A stretch of DNA of 64,000 nucleotides from Psychrobacillus sp. FSL K6-2836. GTDB lineage: Bacteria > Bacillota > Bacilli > Bacillales_A > Planococcaceae. Position numbers and translations under genes: made by a program. The DNA lies in the NCBI RefSeq assembly GCF_038003085.1, contig NZ_JBBOOM010000001.1, positions 3,968,001 to 4,032,000 on the forward strand. Direction: 5' to 3'. The notes under the pieces are model-generated. The model made no database searches and had not been told where the DNA came from. It saw nothing but the letters and a program-made list of their open reading frames with translations. Positions within the stretch are counted from its first letter, which is position 1. Every line of letters starts with the position of its first letter. Below, in pieces: positions 21,599-22,479 of this stretch.

Positions 21599-21728
21599 AT
21601 TTCCGTTTCACGAGGCCGCTTTCCGCTGGCGAGGCTGAGCCTCCTCGTTCGCTTCGCTCCCTGCGGGGTCTCGACTTTCTCACTGTTCCCACTGGAGTCG
21701 CCGAGTTACACTACAATCAATAGGCGAG
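21599..21728 (+). repeat. Dispersed repeat family A, copy 2
   Basis: ATTTCCGTTTCACGAGG ... CACTGGAGTCGCCGAG ... CAATCAATAGGCGAG. It is a direct repeat of the next copy (21813-21945), about 85 bp apart, with most differences at GC positions. Confidence 0.75.
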
Positions 21729-21812
21729 TAGATTTAAACTTTAAGATTTATCGAGATAATTATTAAAAGAACAATGATTGCAGAAGGTATTTTGAAGTGA
21801 TAGTTATACTGT

Positions 21813-21945
21813 GATTTCCGTTTCACGCGGACGCTTTCCGCGGGCGAGGCCGAGCCTCCGCGTTCGCTACGCTCCCTGTGGGGTCTCGACTTTCTCGCTG
21901 TTCCCGCTGGAGTCGCCGCGTTACACTTCAATCAATAGGCGAGTA
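21813..21945 (+). repeat. Dispersed repeat family A, copy 3
   Basis: ATTTCCGTTTCACGCGGACG ... GCTGGAGTCGCCGCG ... CAATCAATAGGCGAG. It shows the same GC-rich sequence as copies 1 and 2. Short ORFs across it are incidental. Confidence 0.75.
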
Positions 21946-22047
21946 AATCTTAACTTTAAGATTGAGCAAAGTAAGTGTTTTAAGTACGATGAAACAAATC
22001 AAAAGTTATGCAACACAAAATAGATGAATAAATCATAGCTTAAGCAG

Positions 22048-22102: not shown

Positions 22103-22228
22103 TTACTTGCTTTGAATCGGTGGATACTTGCGTTCATGTGGATATTACTTGCGCTGCCCAACAGGTTACTTGCGATTATTAGTTATTTAGTTGCGCTTAG
22201 AGATGACTTACTTGCGGAATGGAAAACT
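22103..22228 (+). repeat. 21-bp-phased array of a TTACTTGCG core, six units
   Basis: The core TTACTTGCG or a one- to two-base variant starts at 22103, 22124, 22145, 22166, 22187 and 22208, exactly 21 bp apart each time. The 12 bases between cores differ in every unit. A shorter, weaker array is at 62244. See findings. Confidence 0.85.
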
Positions 22229-22314
22229 TGACCATTAATTTTAAGGGTTTTATATATTTCAAATGCATTATCGCGTCATTTTAGAAGCTGATTTCTGAAT
22301 TACCACTGATAGCT

Positions 22315-22437
22315 AGGATGTGCACCTCCCAAGCCGCAAGAGCGCGAAGAATGAGACTTCAAAAAGGATGAAGTAGTGATAGCGACCATCCTTGAAGGCT
22401 CATGCGTAGCGTGCGGCACCGCACATCCGTGTAGAAG
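22315..22437 (+). repeat. Dispersed repeat family B, copy 2
   Basis: Shares its central part with 8861-8983, including CTCATGCGTAGCGTGCGGCA. Ends are GGATGTGC and GCACATCC, short terminal inverted repeats. Similarity also extends about 40 bp upstream (TTTTAGAA ... CACT/CACTGAT). Confidence 0.75.
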
Positions 22438-22479
22438 CATATACATGGATTCATCACTCTTTTTTAAATTGGCAAAGCA

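Follow-up and report, generated by a model that had tools for sequence, protein, structure and literature searches.

Plasmid iterons are several direct repeats lying about two helical turns apart, with the cognate Rep protein encoded alongside and with private specificities. REP elements with RAYT transposases are intergenic palindromic hairpins that form species dialects and are tied to a protein gene. Type III toxin-antitoxin systems (e.g., ToxIN) have longer repeats that are well conserved over their full length and function as RNA. Excerpts of one study describe LytTR sites as direct repeats of 9 bp separated by 12 bp, e.g., ACCACTTAC-12-ACCACTTGC (PMC6193735). Non-CRISPR repeat arrays with hypervariable spacers have also been described, and the excerpted text names AddB-like and GGDEF systems, not NERD (PMC10910872). 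As for the NERD domain, excerpts of PMC9040797 present SmdA as a NERD-domain membrane protein of cell division and call bacterial NERD function previously unstudied.

The window (the whole 64-kb stretch of DNA analyzed here) carries one phased array of short direct repeats. Such arrays resemble iterons in their direct repeats about two turns apart, their adjoining cognate protein gene, and their private specificities, but they occur as dozens of chromosomal copies outside any origin, with a short motif and free spacers, and the partner is a NERD domain and not a Rep fold. The window array itself lies between ORFs of 262 and 494 aa, which we take to be recO-like and glyS-like (glycyl-tRNA ligase-like), respectively, with no adjoining Rep gene. 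Similar to REP elements, the arrays are intergenic repeats with species dialects and a tie to a protein gene, but REPs are palindromic hairpins and the arrays do not fold. ToxIN shares with them a nuclease gene adjoining tandem repeats and private pairs; here, however, the motif is short, the spacers are free, no fold was seen in 32 arrays of the window dialect, and many copies are solo. LytTR sites share the 9-bp direct repeats and the 12-bp spacers (with a minority of 11 and 13 bp), but in the excerpts they are promoter pairs, while the arrays have 4-6 sites, away from promoters and beside NERD genes (PMC6193735). The excerpted non-CRISPR arrays are also regularly spaced repeats beside nucleic-acid enzymes, but the spacers here drift slowly (PMC10910872). 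SmdA has the NERD domain in common, and loci of other NERD architectures lacked arrays in our set (1/30, a coding repeat). The array and the NERD zinc-ribbon gene together look like a two-part system that is undescribed so far: in open-access full-text literature we found no description of such arrays or of NERD proteins with them, subscription papers and preprints lying mostly outside that search.

The phased array of the window

The first-pass annotation reported six copies of a 9-nt motif at exactly 21-bp spacing in a non-coding region. The exact steps were confirmed (Table 1), the longest exact chain being six sites, whereas no chain in any of 40 dinucleotide shuffles exceeded one site. 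Scanned without a motif at periods of 14-31, the window gave a single cluster, of period 21 and at the array, and 60 dinucleotide shuffles gave none; a stricter scan at periods of 12-44 gave the same lone cluster. The 9-mer by itself is common (20 window matches with at most one mismatch, 14.1 expected). What is rare about the window array is its phase, not the 9-mer. Tandem Repeats Finder, at a score of 30, did not have the array in its output.

The 12 bases between the motifs had been described as showing no similarity. They are mostly free, but similarity is not absent, and the unit extends as TTACTTGC[GT]nT. A profile of 191 units of the window's genome (G000), from an earlier, incomplete locus set, has 0.57 and 0.86 bit at offsets 8 and 10, counted from the first T, and almost none thereafter. 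By eye, arrays elsewhere share a 3' end close to GGAACGGRAATTTATCCATT, and their 5' flanks have no common sequence.

Table 1. Coordinates of the window array, its surroundings, and loci discussed in the text (window positions unless a contig is given)
Feature	Position	Strand	Remark
Six-site array	22103..22228	+	unit TTACTTGC[GT]nT plus about 10 free bases, period 21 bp
Site 1	22103		TTACTTGCT
Site 2	22124		ATACTTGCG
Site 3	22145		TTACTTGCG
Site 4	22166		TTACTTGCG
Site 5	22187		TTAGTTGCG
Site 6	22208		TTACTTGCG
Terminal sequence after last motif	22216..22236	+	GGAATGGAAAACTTGACCATT; diverged copy of the common end, by eye
Neighbor ORF, 262 aa	20739..21527	+	pointing towards array
Neighbor ORF, 494 aa	22558..24042	-	pointing towards array
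Other dispersed repeats	21602-21993 and 22318-22450		on either side of array
Paired NERD zinc-ribbon genes, G000	G000:C1:1393054 and 1399706		
Paired NERD zinc-ribbon genes, G007	G007:C1:2934143 and 2941170		
Paired NERD zinc-ribbon genes, G006	G006:C16:26945 and 32509		
L048	G000:C1:1506328-1506432		inverted array
L257	G008:C8, near 393360-393900		triple array

The non-coding location held up, with no ORF of at least 40 aa over the array. A coding reading was rejected, as one translated frame contains stops and 20-bp steps in arrays elsewhere break the frame. Some frames of arrays elsewhere are open: 2/32 arrays lay inside an ORF of at least 90 aa in one count, and none lay inside ORFs of at least 100 aa in a stricter count that set aside ORFs built mostly of array. 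A short ORF seen by eye at the array end is missing from some copies. Rfam gave one match, which was under its cut-off and lay beside the array. The dispersed repeats flanking the array are of other kinds, about 120-190 bp long, and common genus-wide.

A dispersed family with conserved motif and phase

Exact ACTTGC-N15-ACTTGC pairs numbered 133 in G000 (control 0), 73 in G006, 69 in G007, and 317 in G008, and 1 to 8 in the other 15 members of the genus, Psychrobacillus. The steps in 108 arrays read in four genomes were 468 of 21 bp, 28 of 20, and 2 of 22, with chaining that admitted only 20-22 bp; when 19-23 bp was admitted, 138/159 steps were 21 bp. Six motifs was the mode (66/108). In small contigs, no TTACTTGC array was found in the 257 of 309 kb examined. 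Nine viral contigs matched a triple pattern. A scan of named genomes gave at least 119 stretches, several of which are other repeat kinds. Loci in Bacteroidota (L078, L079, and L107, among others) and cyanobacteria (L088, L090, and L097, among others) contain different TACTTGC repeats, which are near-perfect 21-bp or 7-bp tandem units without free spacers.

To compare orthologous arrays, 16 of 61 alignments were hand-picked, one per locus and relative (L043 twice). Motif positions differed at 47/720 and spacer positions at 307/1164 (Fisher 7e-30), a roughly fourfold lower rate of change in motifs than in spacers, in a set biased towards kept motifs since relatives needed a detectable array. 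Between G000 and G008, the pooled differences were 9/240 in motifs and 56/387 in spacers, and the window array had 0/48 motif differences from its G008 counterpart. Selection on the motif and its phase, which the first-pass annotation had raised, was thus borne out: the period is kept in other arrays and the motifs are steadier than the spacers. Spacing elsewhere is not irregular, 468 of the steps in the 108 arrays being of 21 bp, and the spacers are not decayed copies of one 21-mer, since orthologous motifs change less than spacers. A decaying 21-bp minisatellite without any partner would account for the shifts in copy number by one whole unit, seen when L043 is compared with L117 and L038 with L065 (21 nt in the latter pair). 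We give this reading almost no credence, however, in view of the motif and spacer differences above and because different motifs share a single period and are tied to one gene family.

When loci were fetched by their flanks, arrays were kept in some relatives and lost from others. At the place of L048, G006 and G008 have an array, G004 has variant motifs, G007 has one motif left, and G014 has none. The whole L048 array is inverted relative to its flanks in G000, compared with G006 and G008.

Among 75 array loci with both gene neighbors known, 28 lay between convergent genes and 2 between divergent genes. In an earlier locus set of 67 loci, a terminator-like hairpin separated the array from the head-side gene at 37/54 loci, and a hairpin stood just beyond the array tail at 3/67. 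With the origin set at dnaA and the terminus taken as opposite, 39/52 loci had one orientation to the replication fork (25/36 in G000 and 14/16 in G007). An earlier figure of 35/40 was biased, as minus-strand arrays of the left arm were missing, and 12 loci have been added since. The genes themselves were co-oriented with the fork in 203/261 cases, and 16/19 arrays in convergent gene pairs had the same fork orientation (p 0.004).

Arrays of the window dialect are not folded RNA. Over 32 of them, from the same earlier set, folding z averaged +0.19 on the forward and +0.65 on the reverse strand, with flank controls at -0.68. An RNA with periodic binding sites, as proposed earlier, was therefore not borne out, since folding was no better than in shuffles and 37/54 arrays lie past the terminator of the neighboring gene. 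In a related reading, the array would be transcribed and its repeats and variable spacers would guide or restrain a nuclease, in the manner of CRISPR or of a type III toxin-antitoxin. A nuclease-domain gene does adjoin regularly spaced repeats with variable spacers (see below), but the window-dialect arrays are without a fold, most arrays are past terminators, and the spacers of orthologs drift by point changes with no turnover. We consider RNA guidance or an RNA antitoxin improbable.

Arrays beside NERD zinc-ribbon genes

Genes for NERD-domain proteins of about 320 aa stood beside large array clusters in G032, Ureibacillus acetophenoni, and G047. A profile of these three proteins led to further members in Fictibacillus fluitans and G007, at distances of 57 and 95 bp from an array, respectively; the member found in G000 is 6 kb from the nearest TTACTTGC array. 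Since the initial loci had been chosen for their arrays, the test was reversed and started from the NERD loci. Three sets, drawn from searches by domain and by protein, had period-20/21 clusters at 13/20, 24/30, and 17/20 loci, sets 1 and 3 being hand-picked from the search lists by open-frame length, and removal of four duplicates left 66 loci. An array adjoined 51/66 NERD zinc-ribbon genes, compared with 1/30 loci of other NERD architectures (Fisher 2e-12), and the sole control array is a coding repeat. Without L426, the query's own locus, which had come to notice by its arrays, and L407, chosen when an array had already been seen there, the count was 50/64. L412 and L414 are weak members of the family (about 30 bits).

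All 146 clusters had a period of 20 or 21 bp and none had another period between 14 and 31. Gene-side arrays of 20 bp were confined to one genus, the others being of 21 bp. Five sites was the mode (64/137), the minimum being four by construction. Over the first two sets, with 46 loci counted, arrays lay downstream of the gene in 18 cases, on both sides in 9, and upstream in 7, and 12 were uncalled. By the strict scan, 15/66 loci had no array; a looser criterion brought out three perfect copies, spaced by 20 or 21 bp and at no other period, in three of these 15 (L463, L467, and L471). The arrays at L407, L436, and L454 are degenerate or short. In three species, two NERD zinc-ribbon genes lie no more than about 7 kb apart, each with its own motif where read (Table 1).

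The protein, about 320 aa long, combines a NERD nuclease domain with a zinc ribbon and a C-terminus that resembles a winged helix. Seven scanned subfamily proteins matched the NERD profile (PF08378) at 51-64 bits, against a cut-off of 22.1. In 24 aligned members, R21, G43, G46, E47, D82, K97, N98, G101, and three cysteines were invariant, and E95 and the fourth cysteine nearly so. These residues point to a nuclease core that is likely intact and to a likely zinc ribbon. The C-terminal stretch ITNKExRxFL...R.L...G...KY may be a winged helix; Pfam gave no winged-helix match among the scanned subfamily proteins. AlphaFold models of two sequences reached a pLDDT of only 37, a PDB sequence search gave no useful match, and PADLOC and NCBIfam gave nothing beyond weak matches to the NERD region or to zinc fingers.

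Three copies of the pattern TTACT-N16 led to further motifs at the same period. These dialects were TTACTACAATC in G001 and G012, TTACT[AG]CC in G029, TTACTTKCC in G140 (another family), and TTACTCTC in G004, where it was read in three places. The backward control of this pattern was rich in genus g4 (81 in G071), and five genomes of that genus (G021, G039, G056, G071, and G081) have many 21-bp arrays with a TCATT-containing motif. These are distinct from the gene-side arrays of g4, because the latter have a 20-bp period (in 3/4 g4 genomes read).

As predicted, the dispersed TTACTACAATC dialect adjoins a NERD gene in both G001 and G012 (L472 and L469). In G004, TTACTCTC is on both sides of the NERD gene at L428, the same motif as in the dispersed arrays, and the protein is 80% identical to the product of the G007 gene with TTACTTGC arrays. 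Where the motifs were so compared, the gene-side motif was the same as the dispersed one in G001, G012, G004, G007, and the second dialect of G000. The five homologs of G000 have the motifs TGCGCAAC, TATGTGGT, TCTCGTAT, AGAATCGC, and one like CTCGGGCG, and ortholog groups have similar motifs, such as ATTCGACC in G007 and G004, AATCGATC in G014, and AACCGACC in G012. Motif similarity was 2.1 for protein identities below 45%, then 2.6 and 3.7, and 5.9 above 80% (Mantel 36 of 1000). The protein-motif correlation was weak overall (Spearman 0.12-0.16) and the C-terminus was not singled out.

The arrays might instead be occupied by a different reader of direct repeats, for instance a LytTR-type regulator or a chromosome protein linked to replication, with the NERD link being indirect. 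The 9-bp direct repeats 12 bp apart of the LytTR sites in the excerpts (PMC6193735) would fit, as would the one fork orientation of 16/19 arrays in convergent pairs. However, this would leave the paralog-specific motifs beside NERD genes unexplained. LytTR repeats in those excerpts are promoter pairs, whereas the arrays have 4-6 sites and only 2/75 are between divergent genes, and thus they failed as LytTR sites. We regard such a reader as very improbable.

Probable orphan arrays and a candidate docking site

None of the five NERD zinc-ribbon genes of G000 has TTACTTGC arrays, and thus the cognate gene is absent from this genome and the window array is probably an orphan, left behind by an earlier specificity or a replaced allele. 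The best match to the G007 TTACTTGC gene was 49% in G000, 50% in G006, and 39% in G008, despite their many TTACTTGC arrays. In G000 one NERD gene has TCTCGTAT arrays, and in G006 one has CTCGTATA pairs on both sides. CTCGTATA pairs numbered 163 in G000 (control 1), 75 in G006, 35 in G007, 10 in G014, 9 in G004, 2 in G008, and none in G001 and G012. They are most numerous where their allele is, yet not confined to it. Arrays thus also occur where the cognate gene is lacking, as G000, G006, and G008 carry TTACTTGC arrays, and G007 35 CTCGTATA pairs, without the gene. In G000, G006, and G007, two NERD genes stand about 6 kb from one another, and so, judging from the coordinates, the place looks common to the three, the G000 gene there being the one with TCTCGTAT arrays and the G006 gene the one with CTCGTATA pairs. 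In G000, a diverged allele with the motif TCTCGTAT appears to have taken the place of the cognate gene at this locus. An orphan should lose its motifs, whereas the TTACTTGC motifs are still kept between G000 and G008, suggesting that the gene loss was recent or that another protein reads the arrays.

Linkage, period, private motifs, and conservation are established here by sequence comparison. On this basis the window array is, with a probability of about 0.72, a chromosomal docking site of a sequence-specific DNA-binding protein of the NERD zinc-ribbon subfamily. An array-forming protein on one DNA face, which the first-pass annotation had suggested, would remain the best reading, and the NERD zinc-ribbon family is now the named candidate. 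Its members would consist of N-terminal helices, a NERD core (GE...D...ExKN), a four-cysteine zinc ribbon, and a putative C-terminal winged helix. Several protomers might bind on one helix face, two turns apart, as one complex (arrays are mostly of 4-6 sites), and the NERD domain is presumed to be an active nuclease. Allele swapping at one locus would turn over the specificity and leave orphan arrays, the window array among them. Against docking, G000, G006, and G008 hold many TTACTTGC arrays without a close relative of the G007 gene, 15/66 loci are array-less by the strict scan, and the protein-motif correlation is weak with no particular role for the C-terminus.

The chief rival, which we consider unlikely, is a mobile element whose binding ends are the arrays, with the NERD protein and host help spreading gene-less solo arrays, as transposases do with MITEs or REPs. 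The gene is flanked by arrays on both sides at 9/46 loci, solo arrays are numerous and patchy among species, related sets of spacers turn up again elsewhere (e.g., L036, L054, L056, and L057), and L041 shows tandem amplification of whole units, each of about 160-190 bp. However, NERD ortholog groups carry related motifs genus-wide, which looks like vertical descent, and several species have kept arrays at one and the same site. Inverted ends and target duplication were not found, and tblastn with one member had no matches in plasmids and none in viral contigs. The array may also be read as a selected replicating repeat.

If the window array is a docking site, the chromosome-borne arrays could keep the nuclease bound and silent, thereby serving as a DNA antidote or a self mark; this is a guess and stands well below even odds. 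A fuller version is doubtful: each nuclease would have a private phased-array address that restrains it or marks self, loss or replacement of the array or the arrival of array-less DNA would free it, and allele swaps would leave orphans. Such restraint would be a kind of chromosomal toxin control not known to us. With docking, the DNA target of a large nuclease-like family whose function is unstudied could be read from sequence for dozens of paralogs, which would make its biochemistry directly testable. Docking would also provide a natural code that links a protein family to DNA motifs, and puzzling phased repeats of Bacillales would be explained.

At the place where neighboring arrays lead one to expect the G007 NERD gene, G008 has three back-to-back TTACTTGC arrays (L257), possibly the scar of a gene loss.
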